Assembly: GCF_963576615.1 (NCBI RefSeq)
Contig: NC_088709.1
Location: 76,800,538-76,864,537, forward strand
Length of the DNA stretch: 64,000 nucleotides
From: Watersipora subatra
Taxonomy: Eukaryota > Bryozoa > Gymnolaemata > Cheilostomatida > Watersiporidae
Direction of reading: 5' to 3'
The translations under genes and the position numbers were made by a program. Positions 976 through 64,000 of this stretch are shown piece by piece (position 1 is the first letter of the stretch; every line of letters begins with the position of its first letter). The notes under the pieces were generated by a model. It had not been told where the DNA came from, searched no databases, and saw only the letters and a program-made list of their open reading frames with translations.

Positions 976-3900
976 CTCAATATGAAAAGCTTGCTCTCCT
1001 TTCCAAGCAAGTCTTGCTGAGACTGTGCACCTTTGGCAATATTGTCTTATCTCATTGAGCCAAGAGCTCTCCTCAATAAAGGACTCAATCTCGTTAAATG
1101 CGCTGTGCAGCACTGCGACTCCTTGATCAACGACAGCCTGATGATCGAAACTAGAACAGATTGCTTTATAAAGAAACATGACGTTATGTAATGCAATAGA
1201 TTAGTTAAACTTTACAAGCAAAAATCATATCAGCAAAGATCAGGGATTTAGAAATTAATGACTTAATATTGCTGTTTTTTAGATCGTTGATAAAAAATCT
1301 CTTTAAATCATTCCAGATAGATCAAACCATTTCTAATAGATCAAATCATTCCTACTTGACCAAGCCATCTCTAATGGTCTGATTGTTCTCACTTGGTCGA
1401 ATTATTTACATGATGTAACATAACTTTCATTAGGTCAAGATATTTCCACACTGTCAAATTTTAACTGCTAGGTCGAATAAACTATTGCTACAAAATTCCG
1501 AATTAGAACAAATTTTGTGGAACCAAAAAAACCATAGAAATAATAAATTATGCATGAAAATGAAATGGTTGTTTGTGAAATACTAACTCTTGTTTTAGAA
1601 GTTGTGACACATTGGCACTGGTGAGAGGAGCATATCGGCCTGTATACCCTGTACCCACCAACTGTAGCTCATTCTCCATCGGCACAGTGAGCTCTGGTGT
1701 GAGAATCAGCAAGTCATTTTCCGATTTGCCAGGGTACTCTAAAATATTTTCATTCTTCTAATAGGTTGCAACAACACTTACTAGTCTGGTGTTTATATAA
1801 CCTACTAGTCTGATGTTCATACTACTTACTTGTCTGATGTTCATAATACTTACTAGTCTGATGTTCACACTACTTACTAGTCTGATGTTCACACTACTTA
1901 CTTGTCTGATGTTCATACTACTTACTAGTCTGATGTTCAAACTACTTACTAGTCTGATGTTTATACTACTTACTAGTCTGATGTTCACACTACTTACTAG
2001 TCTGATGTTCACACTACTTACTAGTCTGATGTTCACACTACTTACTAGTCTGATGTTCATACTACTTACTAGTCTGATGTTCACACTACTTACTAGTCTG
2101 ATGTTCATACTACTTACTAGTCTGATGTTTATATTACTTACTAGTCTGATGTTCATACTACTTACTAGTCTGATGTTCATACTACTTACTAGTCTGATGT
2201 TCATACTACTTACTAGTCTGATGTTCATATTACTTACTAGTCTGATGTTCATACTACTTACTAGTCTGATGTTCATACTACTTACTAGTCTGATGTTTAT
2301 ATTACTTACTAGTCTGATGTTCATACTACTTACTAGTCTGATGTTCATACTACTTACTAGTCTGATGTTCATACTACTTACTAGTCTGATGTTCATATTA
2401 CTTACTAGTCTGATGTTCATACTACTTACTAGTCTGATGTTCATACTACTTACTAGTCTGATGTTCATACTACTTACTAGTCTGATGTTCATACTACTTA
2501 CTAGTCTGATGTTCATATTACTTACTAGTCTGATGTTCATACTACTTACTAGTCTGATGTTCATACTACTTACTAGTCTGATGTTTATATTACTTACTAG
2601 TCTGATGTTCATACTACTTACTAGTCTGATGTTCATACTACTTACTAGTCTGATGTTCATACTACTTACTAGTCTGATGTTCATACTACTTACTAGTCTG
2701 ATGTTCATACTACTTACTAGTCTGATGTTCATACTACTTACTAGTCTGATGTTCATACTACTTACTAGTCTGATGTTCATACTACTTACTAGTCTGATGT
2801 TCATACTACTTACTAGTCTGATGTTTATACTACTTACTAGTCTGATGTTCATACTACTTACTAGTCTGATGTTCATACTACTTACTAGTCTGATGTTCAT
2901 ACTACTTACTAGTCTGATGTTCATATTACTTACTAGTCTGATGTTCATACTACTTACTAGTCTGATGTTCATACTACTTACTAGTCTGATGTTTATATTA
3001 CTTACTAGTCTGATGTTCATACTACTTACTAGTCTGATGTTCATACTACTTACTAGTCTGATGTTCATACTACTTACTAGTCTGATGTTCATATTACTTA
3101 CTAGTCTGATGTTCATACTACTTACTAGTCTGATGTTCATACTACTTACTAGTCTGATGTTCATACTACTTACTAGTCTGATGTTCATACTACTTACTAG
3201 TCTGATGTTCATACTACTTACTAGTCTGATGTTCATACTACTTATTAGTCTGATGTTCATACTACTTATTAGTCTGATGTTCATACTACTTACTAGTCTG
3301 ATGTTTATATTACTTACTAGTCTGATGTTCATATTACTTACTAGTCTGATGTTCATACTACTTACTAGTCTGATGTTCATACTACTTACTAGTCTGATGT
3401 TCATACTACTTACTAGTCTGATGTTCATACTACTTACTAGTCTGATGTTCATACTACTTACTAGTCTGATGTTCATATTACTTACTAGTCTGATGTTCAT
3501 ACTACTTACTAGTCTGATGTTTATACTACTTACTAGTCTGATGTTTATACTACTTACTAGTCTGATGTTCATACTACTTACTAGTCTGATGTTCATATTA
3601 CTTACTAGTCTGATGTTTATATTACTTACTAGTCTGATGTTTATACTACTTACTAGTCTGATGTTCATACTACTTACTAGTCTGATGTTCATACTACTTA
3701 CTAGTCTGATGTCCATATTACTTACTAGTCTGATGTTCATACTACTTACTAGTCTGATGTTCACACTACTTACTAGTCTGATGTTCATACTACTTACTAG
3801 TCTGATGTTCATACTACTTACTAGTCTGATGTTCATACTACTTACTAGTCTGATGTTCATATTACTTACTAGTCTGATGTTTATATTACTTACTAGTCTG

Positions 3901-6900
3901 ATGTTTATACTACTTACTAGTCTGATGTTCATACTACTTACTAGTCTGATGTTCATACTACTTACTAGTCTGATGTTCATACTACTTACTAGTCTGATGT
4001 TCATACTACTTACTAGTCTGATATACATACTACTTACTAGTCTGATGTTCATACTACTTACTAGTCTGATGTTCATACTACTTACTAGTCTGATGTTCAT
4101 ACTACTTACTAGTTTGATGTTTATACTACTTACTAGTCTGATGTTCATACTACTTACTAGTCTGATGTTCATACTACTTACTAGTCTGATGTTCATACTA
4201 CTTACTAGTCTGATGTTCATACTACTTATTAGTCTGATGTTCATACTACTTATTAGTCTGATGTTCATACTACTTACTAGTCTGATGTTTATATTACTTA
4301 CTAGTCTGATGTTCATATTACTTACTAGTCTGATGTTCATACTACTTACTAGTCTGATGTTCATACTACTTACTAGTCTGATGCTTTTCAGGAGTATCAA
4401 GTGAAACATCTTCATTCCTTGCTGTGTGTGATTTGAGCTCTGCAACAGTGAGTCTCACATGTTTTTGTGCAGCAGCAGGTTTTTGAGCTGAGCCACCTAC
4501 TCCACTTGGCAGCGATGTCTTACATTTACCGGTGGCTCCTATCACTGTGTATCTATAAATAAATAGTAACCAACACCCACTTAGTTAACTGGTTTTGTTT
4601 CTCATGATCTACTGCCACATCAATCAGGATGAAGACAATTTTATCCCTTTATAAAGACAGCTGATCATTTTATTGAACTTCAGCACGTGAGACTCCAAAT
4701 ACATATTTGAATAGAAGTGTAACGGCCAATAATGACAGCTCAAATCACCAAAGTACAAAGCTGAATGAAAGGCGTGCTTCATATTAATTATTAAATTACA
4801 TGAGTAATCTGATGAAACTAATCATCATAAGAAGCCCAGCCAAACTAACAAAACTATGGCCACATCTTACCTGGTCTCAGCTTTCATAGACTCCATTCTG
4901 TTATTGACAAGATACTCGGCGTCGATACCAAAGGAGACATCACAAAGAAGCTGTGGCAAACCTTCGATAGATGCTATTATGACTTCTGTGAAATCTTCTC
5001 GAGAAGGAGAAATGCAAAGCTTCCCTACAGTAACATATGGAGTAGTGAAAAGTGAATAGTGAAAAGAGTAGAAGAATTGTGGTGAAAACGTTGAAAAAGA
5101 GTAGACCACACAGAACGGTAGACCACACACACAGAATGGGTATGATCTCTTTAGGACACAGATTCCTCATAATGTGATGTGAAATTTGAGCAAATATTTC
5201 ACATTAAACCTGAAGTAATTTCCAAGACACAGTTAATGAAAAGCACAAGTAAAGAAGCTGATATATACATTAATAATAAGCCATATATATGTCAAGTTAG
5301 TTTAAGTTTCACCTAGTTTAAGAGTAAGTTACACTGCATATCACCAGCTCTATTTCCAAACCTAGACATTGACAAACCTACACTTAAATTTTCTTATCTC
5401 TACAGAAAAGTAACAAGAACAAGTTATCTACTTCAGTTTTATATAATGCATTTGTCATAAGGCTATGTGTATCTCCAGGATTTGTAAAAAAATTATTTCG
5501 ATTTTGCTGTAGAAAGAGTTACACTGTATCCTTGTATTTGATGCAACATATGACAGTTTTAACATAAGATCTCAGAATGAATTGATCTTAAACATTACTG
5601 ATCTATCAATAAAATAGCAATAATTCATTAATGAACTATAGAAATACCAATACATCAAAACACAGTGTACCTATCAGTTAGCACGAAAAGCCTGACAGAT
5701 CAGTTAGTGCTGCTCCTACGCTAATAACAGCATATATGTTACGTCAGCTAAACACACTCTCAGACTACCTTAAACCTTCTGCTACTTACTCGATGTCCTC
5801 TGACCAGCCTCTCTAAGTAATATTTAACGACTTATCACTGACCTTCATCATCAAACTGCAGAGCACACTTTAAAAGAGACTCTCTGCTGCTCTCTGGAGC
5901 ATTCTGTAGGACAGCATAGACAAAGCTATGAGCTGAAGTCTTGATAATATCTATTAGCTGGGCGAGGATCAGCTGATCGATAAGCTTCACAAAGTTACCC
6001 AAGCGACTACAAATAAACAGCTTATGACTGATGGCTGTGATTATGTTTGTTGTGGCCAGTGAGCTGTCAGTCAGCCACAAGATCTTTCAGTAACTGACAG
6101 CAAACAAAATATGGGTTTAACTTTAGCAAATCATAGCCCAGGTATACGGGCAACTACATGTATATATATAAGGTAACAACCATACCATGGAAGCACACAC
6201 CTATAATGCAACATTTAGGTGTAAATTACACTCTGAGGTCAACCAGAAGAAACAAATTCTTACTTAGTTTCAGCCCGACACTGTTTGAGGTTGTCCTCTC
6301 TTAGCTTTTGCTTTTTGTTGCTGATGTGGAGAGACTCCTTGGTACTACAACACAGAATTTATTGACAACATATTTTATTGCTGTGCTATCTAGCCAAAAC
6401 ATAGGATCTAGCAAATCAGAAAATCCTTTTATTTATAGGTACCGCCCACAATCGCAGGAACTTGACAGCTATGGACATGTGGCTCGTCAGACAACGCACT
6501 GAGATGCAGTTACTCTGTAAGCTAACCCAAATAGTAAAACCACCCTATTGGAGGCCTCATAGAGCATTACTAGCCAACTAAGAATCAGAAGACTTGAGAA
6601 GTTACACAACTACTAGCTCGGATGTTATTACCTTGCATAATGTTTCCTAAAAAGTAATAGTTGTGATGGTTAGACAATATGTAGCCTCAGAAAAACATTG
6701 ACCAATGCAAAGTTGAGGCTTCATCTAGTGAGCCTCAGGTACTTACAATATAGCTTTGTTACTGACTTGCTTCTCCCAGAATCCAAGTTTTTCAAACTGC
6801 TCCTTTCTGGCGTGTTCGACGAGGTTCCTGCAGTGCCTGTCATAAGTGAGAAGCATTGAGAGTAGCTAGCATAGTATCTGGCACAATCAGCATTTCAGTT

Positions 6901-9900
6901 TAGTTTTAGGTAGATGATGAGCATATCAATGAAATCTGTAAAAACCTCAGACAAATTCTCAATATAAAATTACATAATCGAGGCAAATGTACAATAAAAA
7001 AGTTAATTAAAAGTAAGAAAAGTACGATAAAAAGGTAATAAACACGCAATAACGTACAATTCACTATAAAAGATGAACACATAAAGGAATAGATATGCGG
7101 AAGGAACAAACAGGAAACACCAATAGATGTGTCACACCACTAGATCTGCAAAAAGATACATACATGTAAAATCGCTCCAGCAGTTTTTCCGATTGTTTAT
7201 TCTGGTAATTGACGAGGTTCCTCCAAGCTCCGATTGTGTAGGAGACACTGTAAAAGTGATAATAGCATAAAACCCGACATACTGCCTGTTCGTTGACAAG
7301 ACAAAATTAAGGCAGTTCCTCTTAAGGCATGTAAACCAAGCTGCTAATAATCCATAAAACTACCAAACTTATAAACTAGAAAGTTGAAAAACCTCAAGTT
7401 AAAACTAAGAACAAGTCATTGATTTTAAAATTTCTATCAATAGCACGCATGCACTGGCAGAATCATGAATTGTAATTGTATAAAGTTATTGTACCTTTCC
7501 CTTTTCCCTTTAAGTTTGTACATTCACAAGTAGCTTGTTTAGTAAGAGATATTGGTAATCGAATCTTGAGCAAACATTACATACAAGTGTGGCTACAGAC
7601 TCGTTAGATGCAGAGACGTATACAACCTTAATGTGCTTGCAACTTGACATAATCAAGATTCAACTCAAACATTCTCAAAAAGCTAGCTAAAGGTTAAAGG
7701 CTAAAGGTGCCCTTTCAAATTGAAAAGGGAAAGATTATAGAAAAACAAGACAATACTGTACAAGAAAAGGAGAAAGCAGATCAAGATTAATAATGGTGTA
7801 AAAAGGGAAGAAACAGACAGACATACTTGGTATCGAGGGGTAGAAAGCTAACAGTTGCCAGTTCATGAAGCAATTTGCAGATGGAAAGACAAGCAGAGTT
7901 ATAGTTGGGAACAGCTCTGAGGATTCGTAGTTGAATCTCTTTATGCCTTTTTTCATATTCAGCTCTCCTCCTCACCTCCATCCAGCTGCAATATTATAGC
8001 TAAATATGTAGATGACTGCGTCAGCTGCTCCACAGAGCTGCCATCACAGTCCTAGCACAAGTAAGCAAGCAAGCTGACTCTATGCTGTCAGAAAGTTGCA
8101 GTTCATTAACAACATGACAGTACCATTACGAGCCAGCAGCTACAGACCTGTCAAAAAGCTGTTACAGACCTGCCATGAAGATGCTACAGACCTATTATAC
8201 ACTTTCTGTTAAAAATATGTTACAGATCTGCCACAAATATGTTACAGACCTGCTAAACACCTTCTGTGAAAGAGTCATTACAGACCTGTCATAAAGATAC
8301 TACAGAACTGCTACAGAGCTTCTACATGTTCGCTATAAATCTGTTAAGAAGTTGCTACAGACATGCTATAATGTACCTCCAGACTTATAAAGCTCCGAAC
8401 TATCAGCTACATATCTGTAAACAAACTACCTAATACAGCCCTGCTACAACAGACCTGCCATAGAGCTTCTCCATATCCGCCACAAACCTGTCAAAGGTTC
8501 GTTATAAGCATGTAATAATACTACCGCAGACCTGCTAAACAGTTCTTACATACTCGTAATAAGCACGATCATGAAATTGTAACTATTCTGGTGCTTGAGA
8601 TTATAATAGTTAGACTGTCACTACTTCCTTATTAGAGTTTAAAAACTTATATAGGTTTTAACGAGTTGGCTAAAACCCACCCTTTAAAATATCTTCGAAT
8701 CAGGTAGTTTTTGAAGAAAGGTATTGTAGAAATGGCTTTGTGTATGACCGCCTGCCTGAACCACTCTCCAAGGCTTAGCACTTCGCATGGCTGATGTTTG
8801 GATACACAAAGCACACCAAAAGTAGAAAAGACATAGTGCTCTGGGTTAACCTGAAATATGCAAAACAAACTTGACTCTCTCATGACAGACAGTACATATT
8901 ACCTTCTGCTTAGGTACTGCTATGAGGTCAGATTCAGGTAGACTCTCTTATGACAGACAATACATATTACCTTCTGTCTAGGTACTGCTATGAGGTCATA
9001 TGGAGACCAGTGCATCTGATCCACTATATTGAAGAACATATGCTTTATTTTTCCCAAGTGGTAGAGCTGAGCAAAGTAGGCCACAGCTTCCCTCGCTGTC
9101 ATGGGTCCTTCCGGCAATGCCTGAATATATAAGAGTACAGTTTGGGGTGGTGCTATATGTTCTTAATATAATATGAAACTAAGAGAATAGCCTGAATATA
9201 TAAGAGTACAGTTTGGGGTAGTGCCATATGTTCTTAACATAATATGAAACTAAGAGAATAGCCTGAATATATAAGAGTACAGTTTGGGGTAGTGCCATAT
9301 GTTCTTAACATAATATGAAACTAAGAGAATAGCCTGAATATATAAGAGTACAGTTTGGGGTGGTGCCATATGTTCTTAACATAATATGAAACTAAGAGAA
9401 TAATTTTACAATTGTTTAAAAACTAATTCGTTTAGTAAACTCACCGTGGCTGCTGCCTGGCTTGATGCTCTCGTCGCTTCATCCATAATAGCCTTAGCTT
9501 TGCTTTGTTCATCTATGGTAGAGAGGGAAGGCTGCCGGTTGCGTGGTAACAGACTAGGATCATCTGGAAGATCAGCCTCAAAGGCATTGAGCAGGAATCC
9601 AGCCGAGCTGTTCCAGACACTCTCCCCTATTAACCAATGAAAGATGGCATAACAACATAACCACCATGTGTGTGATAAAGAGAGAGTGCATAGAGTATGC
9701 AGTAATCACCACTTTGGGTGCCACAGAGAAACATAAAGCATAAACATTTGGTATAATTCTTACTTTGTGCGGCTTCTTTCCCGACGGCAGCGATAGACTT
9801 GCGAAGATCTCCAAAAGTGAGAGATTGGTTCGAAGCCACAAACTTGTTCTCTTCACCCTGTTGATTAATATAGTAGAACTAGAAATTGTTGCATACAGAA

Positions 9901-12900
9901 GGAAATGTATTTGAAGCAGAAGCAGAAGTGGAAGTGTGAGGCTGTTGATTACACCTGTATAGAGTTTTAAATTTAAAAGTAGAAATTTCTGAGTAATAGA
10001 AGTAGGGAGCCATACAATAATGATGAGACTGCATGGAATTTTAAAAACGCATTTCATAAATTTTTTAAAGCAAAAAGTTAGTTAATATTTTTAACAGTTT
10101 ATATATTGCTGACATATAATGCTGACATATATTGCTGACATATAATGCTGACATATATTGCTGACATATATTGCTGACATATATTGCTGACATATAATGC
10201 TGACATATAATGCTGACATATATTGCTGACATATAATGTTGACATATATTGCTGACATATAATGCTGACATATATTGCTGACATATATTGCTGACATATA
10301 TTGCTGACATATAATGCTGACATATAATGCTGACATATATTGCTGACATATAATGCTGACATATAATGTTGCACATGTACTTTTGCTAACTGGTAAAACT
10401 TCATTAAAATTTATAGAAAAATGTCTGGTCATAATTTTAGGCGATAACTTTTAACTTTTAATAAGTTATCAAGGCCTCTTGGCGTATAAATATAACATCA
10501 ATCAATTATTCTCTGACGCCATACACATTACAGGATGCACTGGCAAATGAAAGCAGCAAGAACATCTTTCCACTTACTGGTCTGTCAAGCAGAAAAGGGT
10601 TTGTACCATCAGGAAGCAGCATGCTGCGATGGGGAGGTCGAGATTTGTATCTGAGAGACTTGCCAGGTTCTACATGTGAGTAAATTCGCTCAGGTGTAGC
10701 ACCAGTTGCTGGTGGTGTTGGCGTGTGGTAAACATGTTTAGGCTTAGAGCCACTCTCTTGTATTCTATCTAAATGCTGCAACAGGTTAACAGCAAACACG
10801 TTAGTTCTAGTGATAGGGTCAGATTCCAACTACCAAATAAGCGTCACATTCTAAATTCGTGCAAGTGATTGAGATGGCAAAATTAAATGCTTCATATAAT
10901 ACAACATCACTATTATTTGGAGTGAAATGTTGTATGTTATTATTAGGGTTTATCAGGAATGAGATTCATCTCATGATATGCTCATTGAGCCCGCATCATT
11001 TAATGAGAAATACAATCAAGCCTCCTAATGCCATTAGTTGTTCCAGCAATGCGCCAACCAAAATATTTGAAAAGACGGAACAGAATTTATGTTGCGCAAA
11101 CACCTCATGCGCTAACTGGTAAGAAATGCGTTAGTACAATTGCTGCCAACAAATTATAACATGTAACTCTTTGACGTTATAGCTTAAAAGAATCTCGAAG
11201 GCTAAGTGTTAGAATTACGAAATATGAAAGGAATGAGCTAGTGCCAAACACGAGCACTTCTTGGTCAATGAGTTTAGACTCGCCCCTTTCCGTTCGAGTT
11301 TTTAGTGTATCGGGTAGCAAGTAGTGCTTGGCACGAGTACTTCTTGGCCAACGGATTTTTCGAGTATCAGGTTTGTTGATATGGATTTCACGTCCAATAT
11401 TTTTAAACATCAAACATATTTAAAAATTGACAATGCAATTATAATTCCATTCACTTATTATTTTTTACTATTTTCCATTGACTGATATTCGTGCTTGTAA
11501 TATTAACACACGGGTTGTTAAACAGTGCTTAGAGCGCAGGGCGCAATAGACCGAGTTTTTTCCTTTCTACTCGATGGATTCGTGTACTAAAAATCGAACT
11601 CGCGAGTCAAAACCCAAACCCGCAAGATCGAAATACTTAAAATTTCTATTACTCAAGATTCGAGAGAAGATAAACTCATAGTTTATAGAGTTTTCTTACT
11701 GCTGCCCACTAGACTGAGCACCATAACTGAATTGTACGGTTAACACAATTACCATAAAGCACACTTGCACTTCATGAACAGGAGTGGTATGTTAGATCAA
11801 AACGTTATAAAAATCACTTTCTATATACTGTAGTATTAAATTAGCATACCTCTGGGAATATAAGGGATAAAGCTGATAGAACGTCTTGTTCAGTGACAGC
11901 GGCATTCTTATTACAGCATTCAATGATTCTTTCCATGTAATGCACACACTAAAATACACAAAAATCATATCAACATGTCTGCAATGACATACATGTACAA
12001 CATGTACAACATGTGTAGCTGTGAATACAGAAAAGTGTTCTGTACCTCTGGGAAATCTTGCAGATATAACTTAACTGGCTCCAGAGTTTTCAAGACTTTT
12101 GCAAAGTAAGACCAGAGTTCAGGCCTGCCAAATACAAAGACAAGTTGTACTCGCTTCATTGCTTTCATCATAGAGTTGCATATAGAGTCAACTATATTAT
12201 ATGGTAATACTGAGTACAGAGTCAACTATATTATATGGTAATACTGAGTACAGAGTCGACTATATTATATGGTAATACTGAGTACAGAGTCGACTATATT
12301 ATATGGTAATACTGTGTATAGAGTCAACTATATTATATGGTAATACTGTGTACAGAGTCAACTATATTATATGGTAATACTGTGTACAGAGTCAACTATA
12401 TTATATAGTAATACTGAGTACAGAGTCAACTATATTATATAGTAATACTGAGTACAGAGTCAACTATATTATATGGTAATACTGAGTACAGAGTCAACTA
12501 TATTATATGGTAATACTGAGTACAGAGTCAACTATATTATATGGTAATACTGTGTACAGAGTCAACTATATTATATGGTAATACTGAGTACAGAGTCAAC
12601 TATATTATATGGTAATACTGAGTACAGAGTCAACTATATTATATGGTAATACTGAGTACAGAGTCAACTATATTATATGGTAATACTGAGTACAGAGTCG
12701 ACTATATTATATGGTAATACTGTGTACAGAGTCAACTATATTATATGGTAATACTGTGCACAGAGTCAACTATATTATATGGTAATACTGTGTACAGAGT
12801 CAACTATATTATATGGTAATACTGTGTACAGAGTCAACTATATTATATGGTAATACTGAGTACAGAGTCAACTATATTATATGGTAATACTGAGTACAGA

Positions 12901-14889
12901 GTCAACTATATTATATGGTAATACTGAGTACAGAGTCGACTATATTATATGGTAATACTGTGTACAGAGTCAACTATATTATATGGTAATACTGTGTACA
13001 GAGTCAACTATATTATATGGTAATACTGTGCACAGAGTCAACTATATTATATGGTAATACTGAGTACAGAGTCAACTATATTATATGGTAATACTGAGTA
13101 CAGAGTCGACTATATTATATGGTAATACTGTGTACAGAGTCAACTATATTATATGGTAATACTGAGTCGACTATATTATATGGTAATACTGTGTACAGAG
13201 TCAACTATATTATATGGTAATACTGTGTACAGAGTCAACTATATTATATGGTAATACTGTGTACAGAGTCAACTATATTATATGGTAATACTGTGTACAG
13301 AGTCAACTATATTATATGGTAATACTGTGTACAGAGTCAACTATATTATATGGTAATACTGAGTACAGAGTCAACTATATTATATGGTAATACTGTGTAC
13401 AGAGTCAACTATATTATATGGTAATACTGAGTACAGAGTCAACTATATTATATGGTAATACTGTGCACAGAGTCAACTATATTATATGGTAATACTGTGT
13501 ACAGAGTCAACTATATTATATGGTAATACTGTGTACAGAGTCAACTATATTATATGGTAATACTGTGTACAGAGTCAACTATATTATATGGTAATACTGT
13601 GTACAGAGTCAACTATATTATATGGTAATACTGAGTACAGAGTCAACTATATTATATGGTAATACTGTGCACAGAGTCAACTATATTATATGGTAATACT
13701 GTGTACAGAGTCAACTATATTATATGGTAATACTGTGCACAGAGTCAACTATATTATATGGTAATACTGTGTATAGAGTCAACTATATTATATGGTAATA
13801 CTGTGCACAGAGTCAACTATATTATATGGTAATACTGTGTACAGAGTCAACTATATTATATGGTAATACTGTGCACAGAGTCAACTATATTATATGGTAA
13901 TACTGTGTACAGAGCCAACTATATTATATGGTAATACTGTGTACAGAGCCAACTATATTATATGGTAATACTGTGTACAGAGTCAACTATATTATATGGT
14001 AATACTGTGTACAGAGTCAACTATATTATATAGTAATACTGTGTACAGAGTCAACTATATTATATGGTAATACTGTGTACATAGTCAACTATATTATATG
14101 GTAATACTGAGTACAGAGTCAACTATATTATATGGTAATACTGAGTACAGAGTCGACTATATTATATGGTAATACTGAGTACAGAGTCAACTATATTATA
14201 TGGTAATACTGTGTACAGAGTCGACTATATTATATAGTAATACTGTGTACAGAGTCAACTATATTATATGGTAATACTGTGTACAGAGTCGTCTATATTA
14301 TATGGTAATACTGAGTCGACTATATTATATGGTAATACTGTGTACAGAGTCGACTATATTATATGGTAATACTGAGTCAACTATATTATATGGTAATACT
14401 GAGTACAGAGTCGACTATATTATATGGTAATACTCTATACAGAGTCAGTTTATTCTTATGCTTACATATCATATTGCAGAACAGCTATGCAGAGGGACTG
14501 AATTTCTTTGTGAAGATGTTCGATACAGCGCGATACCTCCCCTTCATCGCCTTCATCTATAGAGCTGAGGTGGACAAGCCTGTCGAAACAATATTATTCG
14601 GCATAAGCAAAGTTCTCTTGCTTGTCACTGGCATCTATGAGCAGGTGACTTCAATAAGTCACCTGCTCATAGATGCCATTGAAGAGGTTTATAGAATAAT
14701 CACATGTATTAGTTACTAGCTATAAACTGACCTTTGTCTCTCCATTTTGCACCAATCCTCTGCGTTTACCAAAACTATTTGGTTAATGCCTGCACGCTTA
14801 GGTCCCTGCAGTGATGTTGCAAGAGAAGCACCGACATCTAGTCGTGGTTTGCAGGTGGCACTACTCAGCTCAGAGAGATTCGCTGCCAT
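976..14889 (-). CDS. Axonemal dynein heavy chain-like, N-terminal tail (5' part of gene)
   Basis: Exons on the minus strand, in transcript order: 14732-14889 (ATG at 14889), 14466-14579, 12046-12124, 11850-11948, 10578-10829, 9764-9857, 9445-9626, 8971-9120, 8681-8850, 7827-7985, 7164-7247, 6747-6836, 6264-6344, 5843-6063, 4871-5024, 4374-4552, 1588-1738, 976-1150. Together they give 864 codons with matching phase at each GT-AG junction. The gene continues past the left edge, so the motor (AAA) domains are not visible. Family evidence is the stem signature YDLIAVPRQKVNPEHYVFS, then LGEWFRQAV, IPFFKNYLIRRYFKGW and a leucine-rich helical run, the pattern preceding the DHC_N1 region of axonemal heavy chains. 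Inferred role: ciliary or flagellar motor tail. A DNAH14-type paralogue is a guess. The start is the first ATG in the first convincing exon; an extra 5' exon near 18053-18111 is possible. Confidence 0.72.
1775..4384. repeat. 24-bp minisatellite, about 108 copies, filling a dynein-gene intron
   Basis: The unit on the gene strand is CATCAGACTA followed by GTAAGTAGTATGAA. The array takes up almost all of the intron 1739-4373. The last ten bases of the upstream exon (ending at 4374) are themselves part of the first unit, and the real donor is the first GTAAGT. Variants are mostly single C/T changes. Long open frames on both strands here are artefacts of a unit divisible by three. Confidence 0.97.
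8115..8560. repeat. Diverged short-period repeat rich in TACAGACCTG
   Basis: TACAGACCTGCCA- and CTACAGA-like phrases recur irregularly about every 17-30 bp between exons 8681-8850 and 7827-7985 of the dynein-like gene. Too diverged to give one period. Confidence 0.45.
8883..9000. repeat. 68-bp tandem duplication across an exon donor
   Basis: 8883-8934 repeats 8951-9000 with few changes. The copied part includes the last ~30 bases of exon 8971-9120 and its GTAATATG donor on the minus strand, so a second, unused donor lies 68 bp downstream of the real one. Confidence 0.8.
9119..9402. repeat. 71-bp tandem repeat, 4 copies, carrying an acceptor
   Basis: Units start at 9119, 9190, 9261 and 9332. 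Each contains, on the minus strand, TCTTATATATTCAG|GC, which in the unit nearest the exon is the acceptor of dynein-like exon 8971-9120. The three other units therefore hold copies of the same 3' splice site. Confidence 0.9.
10105..10372. repeat. 13-bp tandem repeat (CTGACATATATTG), about 20 copies
   Basis: Units alternate between TATATTG and TATAATG forms. The array lies in the intron between exons 10578-10829 and 9764-9857. On the gene strand each unit ends ATATGTCAG, acceptor-like. Confidence 0.95.
12181..14445. repeat. 34-bp minisatellite, about 66 copies
   Basis: The unit contains GTCAACTATATTATATGG and TAATACTGTGTACAGA. Common variants are GAGTAC/GTGTAC/GTGCAC and GTCAAC/GTCGAC. A few units are shortened (near 13165 and 14312). 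It fills the dynein-like intron 12125-14465. On the gene strand each unit reads GACTCTGTACACAG, acceptor-like. Confidence 0.97.
14629..14678. repeat. Perfect 23-bp inverted repeat, 4-base loop
   Basis: Arms 14629-14651 and 14656-14678 are exact reverse complements (arm begins TGGCATCTATGAGCAGG) around CAAT. It lies in the 152-bp intron between the first two dynein-like exons. Confidence 0.93.
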
Positions 14890-14892
14890 TTT

Positions 14893-15050
14893 TGGTAGCC
14901 TTAGTCTATAGATAGAATAGCCTTAGTCTATAGATAGCATAGCCATAGTCTATAGATAGAATAGCCATAGTCTATAGATAAAATAGCCATAGTCTATAGA
15001 TAGAATAGCCTTAGTCTATAGATAGAACAGCCTTAGTCTATAGATAAAAT
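14893..15050. repeat. 22-bp tandem repeat, about 7 copies, upstream of dynein-like start exon
   Basis: Units of GCCATAGTCTATAGATAGAA with CCTTAG/CCATAG variants begin within ten bases of the ATG. On the gene strand each unit gives TCTATCTATAGACTAAG, acceptor-like. Confidence 0.92.
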
Positions 15051-15059
15051 GCCATAGTA

Positions 15060-21300: not shown

Positions 21301-24300
21301 GTGTAATCATATATTCATGTCTTTTATTTAATGGTCTGGTAGATGACTACCTGTGTTTTAAATTTAGTGGTAGTTGACTACCCATGCTCTCTATTTTCTG
21401 GTAGTGAGTTGGAGTACCGATTTGTTTAATGATTATTGCAGCCTACTCTGATGTCATGATTGTATTTCTTTTGCAGATGGGGACAGTGCAACTAACACAT
21501 CAACTGCTGATGATGGGTAAGTGTCCAATACTCACCTCTAAGTCATAAGTAGACTATATTATACTCTGTTTACAGTGTAGTTTATAAGTAGACTATATTA
21601 TATTCTGTTTACAGTGTAGTTTATAAGTAGTCTCTATTATACTCTGTTTACAGTGTAGTTCATAAGTCGACTCTATTATACTCTGATTGTAGTGTAGTTT
21701 ATAAGTAGACTCTATTATACTCTGTTTACAGTGTAGTTTATAAGTAGACTATATTATATTCTGTTTACAGTGTGGTTTATAAGTCGACTCTATTATACTC
21801 TGTTTACAGTGTAGTTCATAAGTAGACTATATTATACTCTGTTTACAGCGTAGTTCATAAGTAGACTCTATTATACTCTGTTTACAGTGTAGTTTATAAG
21901 TAGACTCTATTATACTCTGATTGTAGTGTAGTTTATAAGTAGACTCTATTATACTCTGTTTACAGTGTAGTTTATAAGTAGACTATATTATACTCTGATT
22001 GTAGTGTAGTTTATAAGTAGACTCTATTATACTCTGTTTACAGTGTAGTTTATAAGTAGTCTCTATTATACTGTTTACAGTGCAGTTTATAAGTAGACTC
22101 TATTATACTCTGTTTACAGTGTAGTTTATAAGTAGACTATATTATACTCTGTGTACAGTGTAGTTTATAAGTAGTCTGTATTATACTCTGTTTACAGTGT
22201 AGTTTATAAGTAGTCTCTATTATACTCTGTTTATAGTGTAGTTTACAAGTAGACTCTATTACACTCTGTTTACAGTGTAGTTTATAAGTAGACTCTATTA
22301 TACTCTGTTTACAGTGTAGTTTATAAGTAGTCTCTATTATACTCTGTTTACAGTGTAGTTTATAAGTAGACTCTATTATACTCTGTTTACAGTGTAGTTC
22401 ATAAGTAGACTCTATTATACTCTGTTTACAGTGTAGTTTATAAGTAGACTCTATTATACTCTGATTGTAGTGTAGTTTATAAGTAGACTCTATTATACTC
22501 TGTTTACAGTGTAGTTTATAAGTAGACTATATTATACTCTGTGTACAGTGTAGTTTATAAGTAGTCTGTATTATACTCTGTTTACAGTGTAGTTTATAAG
22601 TAGTCTCTATTATACTCTGTTTATAGTGTAGTTTACAAGTAGACTCTATTACACTCTGTTTACAGTGTAGTTTATAAGTAGACTCTATTATACTCTGTTT
22701 ACAGTGTATAATTTTGCAAATGCTACTTCTCTCCCATGTACTTTTGCCTGCAGCGACTCGCAAGTGTTTGATAGAGTCAGAGGCCATGACATCAGACTGT
22801 TGAAGGAACTTGGTGTCAATCATATCTGTGACTTGATGCTTGAGAATAAGAAGGTCAAGTACTTTGTCAAGTAAGCTTTTATCAGTTCTGTCAATATCAT
22901 CATTTTGTCTTGCTTACTCTGCAAGTCCTAAATATTTTTGTCATATCTGATGTAGCAATTGATGTAACCTTGCAGTGTGACATCATCAGAAAAGATTGAT
23001 AAAAGGAACAGATATTCTGAGTTTTCAGTCTGGAGCCTGCCTTATCCGGGTTGTGAATTTTTCAAGGTATGTACACCCTTCATCTTGGAGTTATCCTATA
23101 AAGCAATGCTTGTCGGGTGTCATGTAACGCTCATCTGAATACATAACCTACTACAGATCTACCTTCCTTTTGTATGCTAGCGGATGACCGGCTTTATGAG
23201 AAATTTTTGGGTGTTATCTTTTCCTTCCAAAAGTCAGCACACACAAACACTGTTTACTGTTGTAGCACTCACAACCTGAAAAGTCCAGAAATGGAAAATT
23301 GACCGGCCATCAGTTGTGTCTCTATATCTGGCCTTTTAGGGTGCTTTGCGATTTTCTATGTTAGTGGTTACCTAATATGGGTGCACACGGTGTATATGCA
23401 CCATAACTGGGTGAGGCAGGGTAGGGGCTGTTGATAATGGAGACGCACATACATAGTGATGCATCAGTTGAGATGCATAAGAGATCTTAAAGTTGTTAAA
23501 TGTTCTTAGGCTATGATAACCGAAGACGTACTTCATAACAAATGCATTTGGTGAAGACAAAAAATGTTTAATTGGATTCGCTCATCAGTAATGGACAGAC
23601 TAGGTACTGTCAATCACGTGTCCCTGAAAGCGGTGGGTAAATAACTACAAATTTATTGATATGCTGTAAACTAAACTAATACATATCATGCACCCCATAT
23701 TATGGAAAGAAAATATATTACTTTGATATTTACTCATGCCCGCTTGTCCTTTTTGGCTATGCATAGGGGTTCTGAACGCACCCTTAATCTAGCAGTTTAT
23801 AGCCTCATGTTGCTATAATTCTGTGTAGCCTCTGGTTTTTCATTGACGCACCATAAATACCTTAGGTGTAGGCAACTTTCACTTACAAAACAGAGGCTTT
23901 GCTATCAGATGTTAACACTCAAATGGAATTATAGACTGGGGTCAGCTTTCAGACTTGCTTAGTAAAAAGTTAAAAATATATACATACTAAGTTACTCTTG
24001 CCTCACGACATCCTCTTTTTCCTGTCTCATCTTTTAATCGTAGTCTATTCTTGGAAATACATCTTCACTAGTGTTTCAAGTTCAAGGTCTCCTTTATTCT
24101 TCACTAGTGCTTCAAGTTCAAGGTCTCCTTCATTCTTCACTAGTGTTTCAAGTTCAAGGTCTCCTTTATTCTTCACTAGTGCTTCAAGTTCAAGGTCTCC
24201 TTCATTCTTCACTAGTGTTTCAAGTTCAAGGTCTCCTTTGTTCTTCACTAGTGTTTCAAGTTCAAGGTCTCCTTTGTTCTTCACTAGTGCTTCAAGTTCA

Positions 24301-27300
24301 AGGTCTCCTTCATTCTTCACTAGTGTTTCAAGTTCAAGGTCTCCTTCATTCTTCACTAGTGTTTCAAGTTCAAGGTCTCCTTTGTTCTTCACTAGTGCTT
24401 CAAGTTCAAGGTCTCCTTTGTTCTTCACTAGTGTTTCAAGTTCAAGGTCTCCTTCATTCTTCACTAGTGCTTCAAGTTCAAGGTCTCCTTTGTTCTTCAC
24501 TAGTGTTTCAAGTTCAAGGTCTCCTTTGTTCTTCACTAGTGCTTCAAGTTCAAGGTCTCCTTTATTCTTCACTAGTGTTTCAAGTTCAAGGTCTCCTTTA
24601 TTCTTCACTAGTGTTTCAAGTTCAAGGTCTCCTTTGTTCTTCACTAGTGTTTCAAGTTCAAGGTCTCCTTTATTCTTCACTAGTGTTTCAATTTCAAGGT
24701 CTCCTTTGTTCTTCACTAGTGCTTCAAGTTCAAGGTCTCCTTTATTCTTCACTAGTGTTTCAAGTTCAAGGTCTCCTTTATTCTTCACTAGTGTTTCAAG
24801 TTCAAGGTCTCCTTTGTTCTTCACTAGTGCTTCAATTTCAAGGTCTCCTTCATTCTTCACTAGTGCTTCAAGTTCAAGGTCTCCTTCATTCTTCACTAGT
24901 GTTTCAAGTTCAAGGTCTCCTTCATTCTTCACTAGTGTTTCAAGTTCAAGGTCTCCTTTATTCTTCACTAGTGTTTCAAGTTCAAGGTCTCCTTTATTCT
25001 TCACTAGTGTTTCAAGTTCAAGGTCTCCTTTATTCTTCACTAGTGTTTCAAGTTCAAGGTCTCCTTTATTCTTCACTAGTGTTTCAAGTTCAAGGTCTCC
25101 TTTATTCTTCACTAGTGTTTCAAGTTCAAGGTCTCCTTCATTCTTCACTAGTGTTTCAAGTTCAAGGTCTCCTTTATTCTTCACTAGTGTTTTAAGTTCA
25201 AGGTCTCCTTTATTCTTCACTAGTGCTTCAATTTCAAGGTCTCCTTCATTCTTCACTAGTGTTTCAATTTCAAGGTCTCCTTCATTCTTCACTAGTGTTT
25301 CAATTTCAAGGTCTCCTTTGTTCTTCACTAGTGTTTCAAGTTCAAGGTCTCCTTTATTCTTCACTAGTGTTTCAAGTTCAAGGTCTCCTTTATTCTTCAC
25401 TAGTGTTTCAAGTTCAAGGTCTCCTTTATTCTTCACTAGTGCTTCAATTTCAAGGTCTCCTTTATTCTTCACTAGTGTTTCAAGTTCAAGGTCTCCTCTA
25501 TTCTTCACTAGTGCTTCAAGTTCAAGGTCTCCTTTGTTCTTCACTAGTGCTTCAAGTTCAAGGTCTCCTTTGTTCTTCACTAGTGCTTCAAGTTCAAGGT
25601 CTCCTTTATTCTTCACTAGTGCTTCAATTTCAAGGTCTCCTTTATTCTTCACTAGTGTTTCAAGTTCAAGGTCTCCTCTATTCTTCACTAGTGCTTCAAG
25701 TTCAAGGTCTCCTCTATTCTTCACTAGTGCTTCAAGTTCAAGGTCTCCTTTGTTCTTCACTAGTGTTTCAAGTTCAAGGGCTCCTTCATTCTTCACTAGT
25801 GTTTCAAGTTCAAGGTCTCCTTTGTTCTTCACTAGTGTTTCAATTTCAAGGTCTCCTTTGTTCTTCACTAGTGTTTCAAGTTCAAGGTCTCCTTTATTCT
25901 TCACTAGTGCTTCAATTTCAAGGTCTCCTTTATTCTTCACTAGTGTTTCAAGTTCAAGGTCTCCTTTATTCTTCACTAGTGTTTCAAGTTCAAGGTCTCC
26001 TTTGTTCTTCACTAGTGTTTCAATTTCAAGGTCTCCTTTGTTCTTCACTAGTGTTTCAAGTTCAAGGTCTCCTTTATTCTTCACTAGTGTTTCAAGTTCA
26101 AGGGCTCCTTCATTCTTCACTAGTGTTTCAAGTTCAAGGGCTCCTTCATTCTTCACTAGTGTTTCAAGTTCAAGGTCTCCTTTGTTCTTCACTAGTGTTT
26201 CAATTTCAAGGTCTCCTTTGTTCTTCACTAGTGTTTCAAGTTCAAGGTCTCCTTTATTCTTCACTAGTGTTTCAAGTTCAAGGTCTCCTTTATTCTTCAC
26301 TAGTGTTTCAAGTTCAAGGTCTCCTTTATTCTTCACTAGTGCTTCAAGTTCAAGGTCTCCTTTGTTCTTCACTAGTGCTTCAATTTCAAGGTCTCCTTTA
26401 TTCTTCACTAGTGTTTCAAGTTCAAGGTCTCCTTTATTCTTCACTAGTGCTTCAAGTTCAAGGTCTCCTTTATTCTTCACTAGTGTTTCAAGTTCAAGGT
26501 CTCCTTTATTCTTCACTAGTGCTTCAATTTCAAGGTCTCCTTTATTCTTCACTAGTGTTTCAAGTTCAAGGTCTCCTTTATTCTTCACTAGTGTTTCAAG
26601 TTCAAGGTCTCCTTTGTTCTTCACTAGTGCTTCAATTTCAAGGTCTCCTTTATTCTTCACTAGTGTTTCAAGTTCAAGGTCTCATTTATTCTTCACTAGT
26701 GCTTCAAATTCAAGGTCTCCTTCATTCTTCACTAGTGCTTCAAGTTCAAGGTCTCCTTTATTCTTCACTAGTGTTTCAAGTTCAAGGTCTCCTTTATTCT
26801 TCACTAGTGTTTCAAGTTCAAGGTCTCCTTTATTCTTCACTAGTGTTTTAAGTTCAAGGTCTCCTTCATTCTTCACTAGTGTTTCAAGTTCAAGGTCTCC
26901 TTTATTCTTCACTAGTGTTTCAAGTTCAAGGTCTCCTTTGTTCTTCACTAGTGTTTCAATTTCAAGGTCTCCTTTATTCTTCACTAGTATTTCAAGTTCA
27001 AGGTCTCCTTTATTCTTCACTAGTGCTTCAAGTTCAAGGTCTCCTTTATTCTTCACTAGTGCTTCAATTTCAAGGTCTCCTTTATTCTTCACTAGTGCTT
27101 CAATTTCAAGGTCTCCTTTATTCTTCACTAGTGCTTCAATTTCAAGGTCTCCTTTATTCTTCACTAGTGCTTCAAGTTCAAGGTTTCCTTCATTCTTCAC
27201 TAGTGTTTCAAGTTCAAGGTCTCCTTCATTCTTCACTAGTGTTTCAAGTTCACGGTCTCCTTTATTCTTCACTAGTGCTTCAAGGTCAAGGTCTCCTTTG

Positions 27301-30300
27301 TTCTTCACTAGTGTTTCAAGTTCAAGGTCTCCTTCATTCTTCACTAGTGTTTCAAGTTCTAGGTCTCCTTTGTTCTTCACTAGTGTTTCAAGTTCAAGGT
27401 CTCCTTTGTTCTTCACTAGTGCTTCAAGTTCAAGGTCTCCTTTGTTCTTCACTAGTGCTTCAAGTTCAAGGTCTCCTTCATTCTTCACTGGTGTTTCAAG
27501 TTCAAGGTCTCCTTTATTCTTCACTAGTGCTTCAAGTTCAAGGTCTCCTTTATTCTTCACTAGTGCTTCAAGTTCAAGGTCTCCTTTATTCTTCACTAGT
27601 GCTTCAAGTTCAAGGTCTCCTTCATTCTTCACTAGTGTTTCAAGTTCAAGGTCTCCTTCATTCTTCACTAGTGTTTCAAGTTCTAGGTCTCCTTCATTCT
27701 TCACTGGTGTTTCAAGTTCAAGGTCTCCTTTATTCTTCACTAGTGCTTCAAGTTCAAGGTCTCCTTTATTCTTCACTAGTGCTTCAAGTTCAAGGTCTCC
27801 TTTATTCTTCACTAGTGTTTCAAGTTCAAGGTCTCCTTTATTCTTCACTAGTGTTTCAAGTTCAAGGTCTCCTTTGTTCTTCACTAGTGCTTCAAGTTCA
27901 AGGTCTCCTTTATTCTTCACTAGTGCTTCAAGTTCAAGGTCTCCTTTATTCTTCACTAGTGCTTCAAGTTCAAGGTCTCCTTCATTCTTCACTAGTGTTT
28001 CAAGTTCAAGGTCTCCTTCATTCTTCACTAGTGTTTCAAGTTCTAGGTCTCCTTCATTCTTCACTGGTGTTTCAAGTTCAAGGTCTCCTTTATTCTTCAC
28101 TAGTGCTTCAAGTTCAAGGTCTCCTTTATTCTTCACTAGTGCTTCAAGTTCAAGGTCTCCTTTATTCTTCACTAGTGTTTCAAGTTCAAGGTCTCCTTTA
28201 TTCTTCACTAGTGTTTCAAGTTCAAGGTCTCCTTTATTCTTCACTAGTGTTTCAAGTTCAAGGTCTCCTTTGTTCTTCACTAGTGCTTCAAGGTCAAGGT
28301 CTCCTTTATTCTTCACTAGTGCTTCAAGTTCAAGGTCTCCTTTATTCTTCACTAGTGTTTCAAGTTCAAGGTCTCCTTTATTCTTCACTAGTGTTTCAAG
28401 TTCAAGGTCTCCTTTATTCTTCACTAGTGTTTCAAGTTCAAGGTCTCCTTTGTTCTTCACTAGTGCTTCAAGGTCAAGGTCTCCTTTATTCTTCACTAGT
28501 GCTTCAAGTTCAAGGTCTCCTTTATTCTTCACTAGTGCTTCAAGTTCAAGGTCTCCTTTGTTCTTCACTAGTGTTTCAAGTTCAAGGTCTCCTTTATTCT
28601 TCACTAGTGTTTCAAGTTCAAGGTCTCCTTCATTCTTCACTAGTGTTTCAAGTTCAAGGTCTCCTTTATTCTTCACTAGTGCTTCAAGTTCAAGGTCTCC
28701 TTTATTCTTCACTAGTGCTTCAAGTTCAAGGTCTCCTTTATTCTTCACTAGTGTTTCAAGTTCAAGGTCTCCTTTATTCTTCACTAGTGTTTCAAGTTCA
28801 AGGTCTCCTTTATTCTTCACTAGTGTTTCAAGTTCAAGGTCTCCTTTATTCTTCACTAGTGCTTCAAGTTCAAGGTCTCCTTCATTCTTCACTAGTGCTT
28901 CAAGTTCAAGGTCTCCTTTGTTCTTCACTAGTGTTTCAATTTCAAGGTCTCCTTCATTCTTCACTAGTGCTTCAAGTTCAAGGTCTCCTTTGTTCTTCAC
29001 TAGTGCTTCAAGTTCAAGGTCTCCTTCATTCTTCACTAGTGCTTCAAGTTCAAGGTCTCATTTATTCTTCACTAGTGCTTCAAGTTCAAGGTTTCCTTCA
29101 TTCTTCACTAGTGCTTCAAGTTCAAGGTCTCCTTTGTTCTTCACTAGTGTTTCAATTTCAAGGTCTCCTTCATTCTTCACTAGTGCTTCAAGTTCAAGGT
29201 CTCCTTTATTCTTCACTAGTGTTTCAAGTTCAAGGTCTCCTTTATTCTTCACTAGTGTTTCAAGTTCAAGGTCTCCTTTGTTCTTCACTAGTGCTTCAAG
29301 TTCAAGGTCTCCTTTATTCTTCACTAGTGTTTCAAGTTCAAGGTCTCCTTCATTCTTCACTAGTGTTTCAAGTTCAAGGTCTCCTTCATTCTTCACTAGT
29401 GTTTCAAGGTCAAGGTCTCCTTTATTCTTCACTAGTGCTTCAAGTTCAAGGTCTCCTTCATTCTTCACTAGTGCTTCAAGGTCAAGGTCTCCTTTGATCT
29501 TCACTAGTGTTTCAAGTTCAAGGTCTCCTTTGTTCTTCACTAGTGTTTCAAGTTCAAGGTCTCCTTCATTCTTCACTAGTGTTTCAAGGTCAAGGTCTCC
29601 TTTATTCTTCACTAGTGCTTCAAGTTCAAGGTCTCCTTCATTCTTCACTAGTGCTTCAAGTTCAAGGTCTCCTTTGTTCTTCACTAGTGTTTCAATTTCA
29701 AGGTCTCCTTCATTCTTCACTAGTGCTTCAAGTTCAAGGTCTCCTTTATTCTTCACTAGTGCTTCAAGTTCAAGGTCTCCTTCATTCTTCACTAGTGCTT
29801 CAAGTTCAAGGTCTCATTTATTCTTCACTAGTGCTTCAAGTTCAAGGTCTCCTTCATTCTTCACTAGTGCTTCAAGTTCAAGGTCTCCTTTGTTCTTCAC
29901 TAGTGTTTCAATTTCAAGGTCTCCTTCATTCTTCACTAGTGCTTCAAGTTCAAGGTCTCCTTTATTCTTCACTAGTGTTTCAAGTTCAAGGTCTCCTTTA
30001 TTCTTCACTAGTGTTTCAAGTTCAAGGTCTCCTTTGTTCTTCACTAGTGCTTCAAGTTCAAGGTCTCCTTCATTCTTCACTAGTGCTTCAAGGTCAAGGT
30101 CTCCTTTGATCTTCACTAGTGTTTCAAGTTCAAGGTCTCCTTTGTTCTTCACTAGTGTTTCAAGTTCAAGGTCTCCTTTATTCTTCACTAGTGTTTCAAG
30201 TTCAAGGTCTCTTTTGTTCTTCACTAGTGCTTCAAGTTCAAGGTCTCCTTTATTCTTCACTAGTGTTTCAAGTTCAAGGTCTCCTTTATTCTTCACTAGT

Positions 30301-33300
30301 GTTTCAAGTTCAAGGTCTCCTTTATTCTTCATTAGTGTTTCAAGTTCAAGGTCTCCTTTATTCTTCACTAGTGTTTCAATTTCAAGGTCTCCTTTATTCT
30401 TCACTAGTGCTTCAAGTTCAAGGTCTCCTTTATTCTTCACTAGTGCTTCAAGTTCAAGGTCTCCTTCATTCTTCACTAGTGTTTCAAGTTCAAGGTCTCC
30501 TTCATTCTTCACTAGTGCTTCAAGTTCAAGGTCTCCTTTATTCTTCACTAGTGCTTCAAGTTCAAGGTCTCCTTTGTTCTTCACTAGTGCTTCAATTTCA
30601 AGGTCTCCTTTATTCTTCACTAGTGCTTCAAGTTCAAGGTCTCCTTCATTCTTCACTAGTGCTTCAAATTCAAGGTCTCCTTCATTCTTCACTAGTGCTT
30701 CAATTTCAAGGTCTCCTTCATTCTTCACTAGTGTTTCAAGTTCAAGGTCTCTTTCATTCTTCACTAGTGCTTCAAGTTCAAGGTCTCCTTTATTCTTCAC
30801 TAGTGCTTCAAGTTCAAGGTCTCCTTCATTCTTCACTAGTGCTTCAAATTCAAGGTCTCCTTCATTCTTCACTAGTGCTTCAATTTCAAGGTCTCCTTCA
30901 TTCTTCACTAGTGTTTCAAGTTCAAGGTCTCCTTTATTCTTCACTAGTGTTTCAAGTTCAAGGTCTCCTTTGTTCTTCACTAGTGCTTCAATTTCAAGGT
31001 CTCCTTTATTCTTCACTAGTGCTTCAAGTTCAAGGTCTCCTTCATTCTTCACTAGTGCTTCAAATTCAAGGTCTCCTTCATTCTTCACTAGTGCTTCAAT
31101 TTCAAGGTCTCCTTCATTCTTCACTAGTGTTTCAAGTTCAAGGTCTCCTTTATTCTTCACTAGTGTTTCAAGTTCAAGGTCTCCTCTATTCTTCACTAGT
31201 GCTTCAAGTTCAAGGTCTCCTTTATTCTTCACTAGTGCTTCAAATTCAAGGTCTCCTTCATTGTTTGGGTAGTTGGCTGAATTCTTTCCCTAAGTTAGTG
31301 CGACTTCAAGCATTGATAATAGAGAGTTAATGAATGAAAGTTGACTTTGTCTGTTACATTACTTTAACGACTGCTGACTTGAAGTGTACATGTAGCAGTT
31401 ACATTACTTTAAAGACTGCTGACTTGAAGTGTATATGTAGCTGTTACATTACTTTAAAGACTGCTGACTTGAAGTGTATATGTAGCAGTTACATTACTTT
31501 AAAGACTGCTGACTTGAAGTGTACATGTAGCTGTTACATTACTTTAAAGACTGCTGACTTGAAGTGTACGTGTAGACCTACCAACACAGGATATGAGATA
31601 ACATGGTGATAGCAACAGGCAGTGTAACTTTCTTTAATTTAGACTGGGTGAAATTTCATTTTACTTAGCGTAATTGCTTAGTATTATTTTCACATTGTTT
31701 TATTGTATAAACTACATTTTGTGGTATCTACATTTAACCTATTCGCATTGTAATTTGAAAATGTGATGCTTTAAGAAGCTTCGACAGCCATGTGTTGGAG
31801 ATTTCTTTTGTTTTAGGTTCATATATTAGACCGAGTTTTACTTCATATGTTGAAACAAGGCAATCATAAAGATGTTCTATTGTATGTCTGTATTCAACAT
31901 AAAGCGTGTGTGTGTACTGATGCAGCGTGAAGTGCGTGAACTGCTAAGTGGGTAATTGCGGACATTATAACCAATCACATTGGAGAGTGCTGCTACTTTC
32001 AATGGTGCACTACTGGATGTTCAGGGCTGATGCCTCGAAGATGTGTGGTAACTTCTATTGGCCATCAAGGAGAATGCCATTTTATGGGAAAATCCTGTCA
32101 ATGAAAGCTCACTGGGCTTTGACATTAAGTTTTCAAGATTTGCTCTATTGTTAGAAATGGAGGGACAAAGGCTATGATGGAGATAAGTCACGCTTTGACT
32201 GGAATCAAGACTTTGTTGATGCAAGATTAGAACTGCCCAATGAAAAGCATCTGCGAATCCCAACTGTCCAATGGCATGAGTACAAGAGTTGGAACCTAAT
32301 ACAAATCACACAAAACTACCTGCATGTTATTCTTCAGCATATTCAGTCAGGTGTCTAGATATCATCTTTTTCCATGCTTGCAGATACCCTTTGTTAAAAC
32401 AATACGAGATTACCACATATCTTCTATATATATCAGGAGACTCCAGATTGTTGATATACTATATATCTTCTATATCATTAAGGGGACTCTGGACTGTTAA
32501 TACACTGCATCTCTGGATGGGACAGAACCCCTCTTTTTATCTCTCTCACTCGGCTCTCACTCTGGGCTGATGGATTGATTCACAAATCTCTCTCTCCTCT
32601 TGAAATCCTCTATTTTACGGTAGCCTATGATTGGTACTTGTTTGGGTGAGTTGAAAACGATAATCGCAACTGATAATTACTAGATAGTCATGCCATCTAT
32701 GAGTATATTCTTGAATAGGTGCAATAACAAAGTTTTTCGGCTGACTGTAATTGTCTGCTCATTACAAGCAATGCCATTAACCCTCAGCATTAATTGCCGT
32801 GAGCAAGCAACTCCTTTTGAGGCTTGTATACATGTATGTTCAAATATGCTGAATTTGTTGTCAAGTATTCACAGATGCGTATTATTTGGTAACAACGAAC
32901 TGTTACTGCTTGCCAAGTTAAGCAGGAGTAATCACCCACAGACACTTGTCCCACGACCAAACGAGCGGAGCGAATGTTTGAGAGTTTTTATGATAAATGC
33001 ATGTGCACACAACTCACGAAAATTATTCATCAACAATGTCGCAAACCCTTGTACCGAAATCTCATCAACAAATTTAACCATTTTTCCGTGGAGTCGTTTA
33101 AGTATAATAGCGATACAAAACACATATAAACCTATTTAAATATATTAGCAAGTCTTTGAAAAGTGTCGACAGTATCTTAAAACTTACCCATCTGTACGGA
33201 TTATACACAAATAGACAGATTAATTTGGCCGAAAATCGTTATTAAAACTTGCCAAACCTTTTATCAAAATTAAGACCGGCAATTGAAACGCCGAGCGACA

Positions 33301-63989: not shown

Positions 63990-64000
63990 CTGTAATATTA

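Follow-up and report, generated by a model that had tools for sequence, protein, structure and literature searches.

An intron of a predicted dynein-like gene of the bryozoan Watersipora subatra was found to consist almost wholly of a 24-bp tandem array, nearly every unit of which carries the splice donor hexamer GTAAGT and which begins inside the preceding exon. The array lies at 1776-4383, in the sense of the minus strand, of a 64,000-nt stretch of contig NC_088709.1 (assembly GCF_963576615.1, positions 76,800,538 to 76,864,537), referred to below as the window. Only the exon-adjacent donor keeps the reading frame open. We consider it probable that a minisatellite arose where the exon met a short intron, and that it has been tolerated as the exon-adjacent donor is the one chosen.

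Tandem Repeats Finder (TRF) reported 108.7 copies of the 24-bp unit with 96% matches. When the minus strand of 4383-1739 was taken in 24-base steps starting at the exon, 109 units with ≤8 mismatches to CATCAGACTAGTAAGTAGTATGAA were obtained, 64 of them identical to it; 15 unit variants occur beside the consensus, and the array amounts to whole units plus 16 bases. Highly identical units of about 10-100 bp, arranged head to tail, characterize minisatellites, and the 24-bp array has this form. GTAAGT occurs 104 times in it (first at 4373, last at 1781), with CTA|GTAAGT at 102 sites and CAA|GTAAGT at two. The spacing is 24 bp in 100 of the 103 intervals and 48 or 72 bp in the rest, i.e. all copies share a single register. 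Five units lack the hexamer, four by a G to A change at +1 and unit 108 by an A to G change at +4. The other 61,355 bases of the window hold 38 copies on the plus and 17 on the minus strand, so that the array contains 104 of 159 copies. The chance of an equally good donor in a random 24-bp stretch of the window outside arrays was about 0.035 (P). Given an acceptor at 1739, the array accounts for 2598 of the 2635 bases of the intron.

The initial annotation, made from the sequence alone, had described about 108 copies of a perfect splice donor at 1739..4384, with about 107 identical competitors of the true one. The estimate of the array held (109 units), whereas that of the donors has to be lowered to 104 and that of the competitors to 103; position 1739 marks where the intron is proposed to end, and the array reaches only to 1776. 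The donor is perfect in its intronic half (+1 to +6). Overall, it scored 6.8 on our matrix versus 12.9 for CAGGTAAGT and ranked mid-range among 13 donors hand-picked in the gene (six lower, seven higher). An 898-residue open frame (1761-4454, minus strand) spans the whole array and repeats IRLVSSMN. It was rejected as a gene, since a 24-bp period with a single stop-free frame produces such an open frame as a side effect; the exon is read in a different frame.

The exon before the array (4374-4552, minus strand, 179 nt) terminates in CATCAGACTA|GTAAGT and directly enters the array. Its last ten bases, CATCAGACTA (4383-4374), belong to the repeat, just as the annotation had pointed out, and the preceding base deviates from the unit. 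The unit is composed of these ten exon bases, the donor hexamer, and eight further bases. A ten-base match between exon end and repeat in any of 24 registers would arise by luck with a probability of about 24 x 4^-10 = 2e-5 (by arithmetic). At the other end of the array, the last unit, CACCAGACTA|GTAAGT, encodes the same His-Gln-Thr as the exon end, with a synonymous change.

Each of the 104 donors was joined to the next exon. The frame was open for donor 1 only (4368-4373). The other 103 donors and the retained intron all run into a stop at the same codon, the TAG of AGT-AAG-TAG at the intron start, which bears out the earlier expectation that a later donor quickly meets an in-frame TAG. Because this stop codon sits in the first unit, the array and the frame argument are independent of the choice of acceptor. 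The frame result is indirect evidence, from which we infer that donor 1 is the donor used. The intact state of the 103 extra donors suggests either that their position makes them poor competitors or that the array is not old enough for a verdict, because good competitors should have been selected away.

For the acceptor, two candidates were considered. Acceptor 1739 (AG before 1738), taken over from the initial annotation, fits the phase and is not settled as the intron end: it scored -4.3, which is weak on our matrix, and acceptor 1694 (AG before 1693) scored 2.8, its phase 2 entry being open as well. With donor 1, the predicted intron would measure 2635 nt (1739-4373) or, with acceptor 1694, 2680 nt. 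The next exon (1588-1738, minus strand) was assigned by frame and phase; it is entered in phase 2 at 1738 or 1693, and its far end is uncertain. Neither candidate acceptor is part of the array, and the sequence around them does not resemble the unit. The distance from the last donor to acceptor 1739 (1739-1781, GTAAGT...ATTTTAG) is 43 nt, and that to acceptor 1694 is 88 nt; this stretch is the candidate ancestral intron. In a recursive splicing site, an acceptor with a pyrimidine tract immediately abuts a donor (AG|GT). Such a site was not found in the unit, which reads CAG-ACTA-GTAAGT and whose best sense-strand acceptor scored -2.3.

The exons of the host gene were predicted on the minus strand, from 14889 to 976, by our own script with generic splice matrices and with codon scores based on 1,212 codons of the window, including the peptides of the exons at issue; such scores serve to rank sites and are no proof of any. 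With E values of at most 0.01, five distinct PDB sequences matched the assembled piece, the best at 1.8e-17 over query residues 8-159. Three of them bear the name dynein heavy chain, and the other two are called AAA+ ATPase domain-containing protein. By these matches, the host gene looks like an animal dynein gene. The assembled 480-residue piece gave no match in Pfam. The translated frames of the minus strand from 1 to 14.7 kb (stops as X) gave no match either, two of the three in Pfam and the third in PDB. Around the array, the phases form a chain, with phase 2 at the end of exon 5024-4871, one base taken up and one left over by the exon entered at 4552, and two bases taken up by the exon that follows. 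The resulting join reads ...TPEKHQT-K-YPGKSENDLL... without a stop. Start 4552 was picked by this phase; the exon finder favored 4544, with a phase that does not fit.

With regard to the origin of the array, a segment comprising the ten bases at the exon end, the donor, and the eight bases that complete the unit would have been duplicated in tandem. Slippage and block duplication may then have amplified it to about 109 copies, lengthening an intron of perhaps 43 or 88 nt to about 2.6 kb. Growth from the exon edge is supported, because the unit contains ten exon bases and the last unit recodes the exon end. The number of changes from the consensus also differs along the array. Per unit, the mean is 0.17 to 0.33 across units 49-84 and 0.25 to 0.75 for the remaining twelve-unit blocks as far as unit 96; it reaches 1.17 for units 97-108, and unit 109 shows 7 changes. 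The higher divergence at the acceptor end is expected if the acceptor edge is old. A block of variants, AB.CC, is present twice (units 3-7 and 44-48), which fits block duplication. Repeated blocks of this kind occurred in 16 of 20,000 shuffles, by a criterion picked post hoc, and a second block, DBA, is likewise present twice (779 of 20,000 shuffles).

The array would persist since the exon-adjacent donor is still chosen, most likely through joint definition with the upstream 179-nt exon and through its earliest transcription. Under exon definition, U1 is described as being recruited to the downstream donor jointly with U2AF to the upstream acceptor, across the exon (PMC8624252), and this appears to be the likeliest reason for donor 1 winning. 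The other 103 donors would bind U1 at most idly, and transcripts using them or keeping the intron would hit the early stop.

Several points weigh against a junction-seeded minisatellite with a fixed choice of the first donor. Both the donor used and the ancestral intron are conclusions drawn from sequence. The PDB matches end by query residue 182, i.e. in exons upstream of the array exon only, and with Pfam blank, the exon before the array and the next exon therefore rest on frame and phase. Furthermore, the exon at 1738 was not called by the exon finder, which proposed 1693-1659 instead, and the two phase-compatible acceptors are of unequal score. A single clean tandem duplication fails to explain both edges of an array of whole units plus 16 bases, and a general lag test for block structure across the units gave no significant result (P 0.69). 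When duplicated donors are equal, it is often the one closest to the acceptor that wins, which would break the frame here. Short introns in this genome are an assumption, which, combined with intron definition, speaks against the choice of the first donor. Intron definition is thought to prevail for small introns (PMC8624252); the intron is now long.

Two further repeats meet splice junctions in the same gene. At donor 8970, a duplication with a period of 68 comprises 28 bases from the exon end together with 30 bases of the intron (copy 1 at 8941-8998, across exon end and donor; copy 2 at 8873-8930, intronic, with a second donor at 8902; both minus strand), and 54 of the 58 bases agree. Donor 8970 joins PRQK to VNPEHY, and one of the two alignments shown sets this stretch gap-free against RQKIGPEYF of chain 8glv_Mm; as the query had been joined by hand, the spacing fits and the join was not independently found. 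The second repeat, a 71-bp x 4 array (9119-9402, minus strand), contains four copies of CTCTTATATATTCAG|GC, the last of which is the predicted acceptor 9121. Its two exon bases match the unit, possibly by chance. Together with the ten exon bases in the 24-bp unit and the His-Gln-Thr of its last copy, these repeats strengthen the proposal of the initial annotation that an exon-intron junction gave rise to the array.

That one gene carries three repeats at splice junctions suggests a shared process rather than a function, because a 24-bp seed on a 43-nt intron often holds the whole donor: among 66 placements overlapping such an intron, 19 do so, and 18 of these also enter the exon. For an 88-nt intron, the corresponding numbers are 19 and 18 of 111 placements (by arithmetic). 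Given this geometry, a donor-bearing array is not surprising. Arrays are also common in the window, with 42 TRF rows, overlapping rows included. Donor-like units among the window arrays generally were slightly more frequent than expected (6 of 44 unit-strands from 22 units with a score of at least 6, versus 3.1 expected; P 0.089), and no excess is claimed. A broader proposition has two parts. The first is that the spliceosome reliably picks the first of 104 near-identical donors 24 nt apart, showing that the exon-adjacent position (first transcribed, exon-defined) outweighs donor strength and nearness to the acceptor. The second is that junction-seeded arrays recurrently lengthen short introns of this genome, multiplying donors in some and acceptors in others. 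Taken jointly, we regard these as possible, though we would not call them probable.

Alternatively, the intron itself could have been gained by tandem duplication, a stretch of exon with a donor sequence being multiplied until the array formed the intron. Fission yeast provides a precedent with gained introns of 24-nt tandem repeats (PMC3629103, PMC4974935), and the exon end at 4374 is indeed repeat sequence. In such a gain, however, both splice sites should stem from the unit, and acceptors 1739 and 1694 lie outside the array and do not resemble it. The best acceptor within the unit is poor at -2.3, although no worse than the -4.3 of acceptor 1739. On balance, gain of the intron by this route appears unlikely.

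A regulatory device would be a second alternative: many U1 sites might slow or gate splicing, leading to retained introns or mRNA decay, and the length of the array would tune the output. The 103 extra sense-strand donors, all leading to the same early TAG, would suit such a role. In addition, a minisatellite of Caenorhabditis elegans was reported to be over-represented near regions of alternative splicing (PMC4039745), and in Amphimedon, most alternatively spliced genes show intron retention (PMC4432959), the latter being relevant to a sponge only. No sign of constraint was found at the donor, however. Kinds of substitution in units 1-107 (units 108 and 109 were left out) hit two of nine donor positions versus six of 15 others (P 0.66; a weak test with 11 kinds), and a conserved donor was rejected as a sign of function. 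Bases 1-16 were hit at four of 16 positions and bases 17-24 at four of eight (P 0.36); counted by cells, bases 17-24 vary more (45 versus 8), mostly from few old changes. Structured array RNA was rejected as well, since 284 nt at the donor end folded no better than shuffled sequences (z -0.68; 47 of 200 shuffles folded as well). The suggestion of the initial annotation that the array acts as a sink for the U1 small nuclear ribonucleoprotein, slows splicing, or shifts the used donor found no positive support in the sequence, and we judge a regulatory role to be quite improbable.

Long near-identical arrays are hard to assemble, but the presence of 15 unit variants, and of diverged units towards the acceptor, speaks for a genuine many-copy array, of which the exact copy number could be off, and an assembly artefact in copy number or in part of the array is the least likely explanation.

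To our knowledge, the choice among equal donors has been studied mostly with few engineered copies. A native gene with about a hundred in-register donors, only the first of which is in frame, offers a natural test of the role of position in splice-site choice, and it suggests how introns might, in a simple way, be lengthened by tandem repeats with the gene left unharmed. No intron with around a hundred copies of a donor was found in a limited search of titles and abstract beginnings of open-licence literature; as far as such searches go, the array represents a new extreme.

The closest known relatives are introns of fission yeast, which span duplicates of a 24-nt repeat, four in SPOG_01682 and two in SOCG_00815 (PMC4974935). 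The original report describes introns comprising tandem repeats with AGGC sites and notes that the splicing of SPOG_01682 needs more work (PMC3629103). The intron of W. subatra shares with them the tandem repeats, the 24-nt unit, a splice-site-like sequence in each unit, and a repeat common to the adjoining exon. In contrast to two or four duplicates, it has 109 units, which apparently grew from an existing donor, and its acceptor lies outside the array. In a potato gene for RNA-dependent RNA polymerase, an intron was gained by tandem duplication across an intron-exon boundary (PMC4974935). The duplication crossed a splice junction in both cases, but here an intron was apparently lengthened with the frame unchanged, whereas a new one arose in potato. 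Like an intronic minisatellite, or variable number tandem repeat, the array consists of near-identical tandem units within an intron; unlike the usual case, its unit carries the intron's own donor and it begins inside an exon, as seen in the one sequence read. In DOK7 intron 4, neighboring donors compete for U1 and a wrong choice spoils the frame (PMC5585400), as would be the case here. That system involves two unequal sites with RNA data, and ours 104 nearly equal sites known from sequence alone. Short introns have been reported in Amphimedon (PMC4432959).

Of the other arrays, four that were placed relative to introns are intronic and stop short of predicted splice sites (12184-14447, 10101-10365, 21545-22708, and 52379-52559); most of the remaining arrays in the window were not placed. 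The array at 12184-14447 (34 bp x 67) fills another intron of the dynein-like gene (predicted 14465-12125) and begins 18 bases past the donor; with one unit, this intron would measure about 111 nt. It was rejected as a junction array, as it lies inside the predicted intron with the acceptor at 12125. The 39-bp x 30 array at 21545-22708 lies in a predicted plus-strand intron (21517-22753) and shows an acceptor-like TTTACAG in each consensus unit. As an acceptor array (acceptor 22704/22705) it was rejected, because the flank CTTTTGCCTGCAG|CGACTC, ending at 22753 beyond the array, joins the upstream exon in frame.

Among further features of the window, a 22-bp array (14896-15058) ends six bases before the predicted start codon of the dynein-like gene (14889). 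Searches of Rfam at gathering scores and for tRNAs (ARAGORN, bacterial code) found none. In a search for relatives of the array, the exact 28-base repeat was present in no viral contig, and a pattern search gave eight matches in viral and 39 in prokaryote contigs, none of which was confirmed, as expected for an animal gene. Gene structure and a collagen trimerization domain encoded in the window likewise indicate animal DNA. The array at 52379-52559, which starts 190 bases past the predicted donor 52189, has a 14-bp unit and 13 donor-like sites (CAG|GTAAAC) oriented like the plus-strand gene in which it lies. The exons of this gene are presumably EGF-like by their look; two frames scanned gave no Pfam match. 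A 129-bp x 2.1 repeat at 53584-53882, in the plus-strand gene, has an open frame called coding by the exon finder. The largest TRF row in the window is a 36-bp x 200 array of 7.2 kb (24062-31262). In a minus-strand gene at 58201-63999, one frame scanned contained a collagen trimerization domain (PF20010, E 9.6e-9) above the cut-off and a collagen repeat (PF01391) below it (24.6 versus 27.2 bits).
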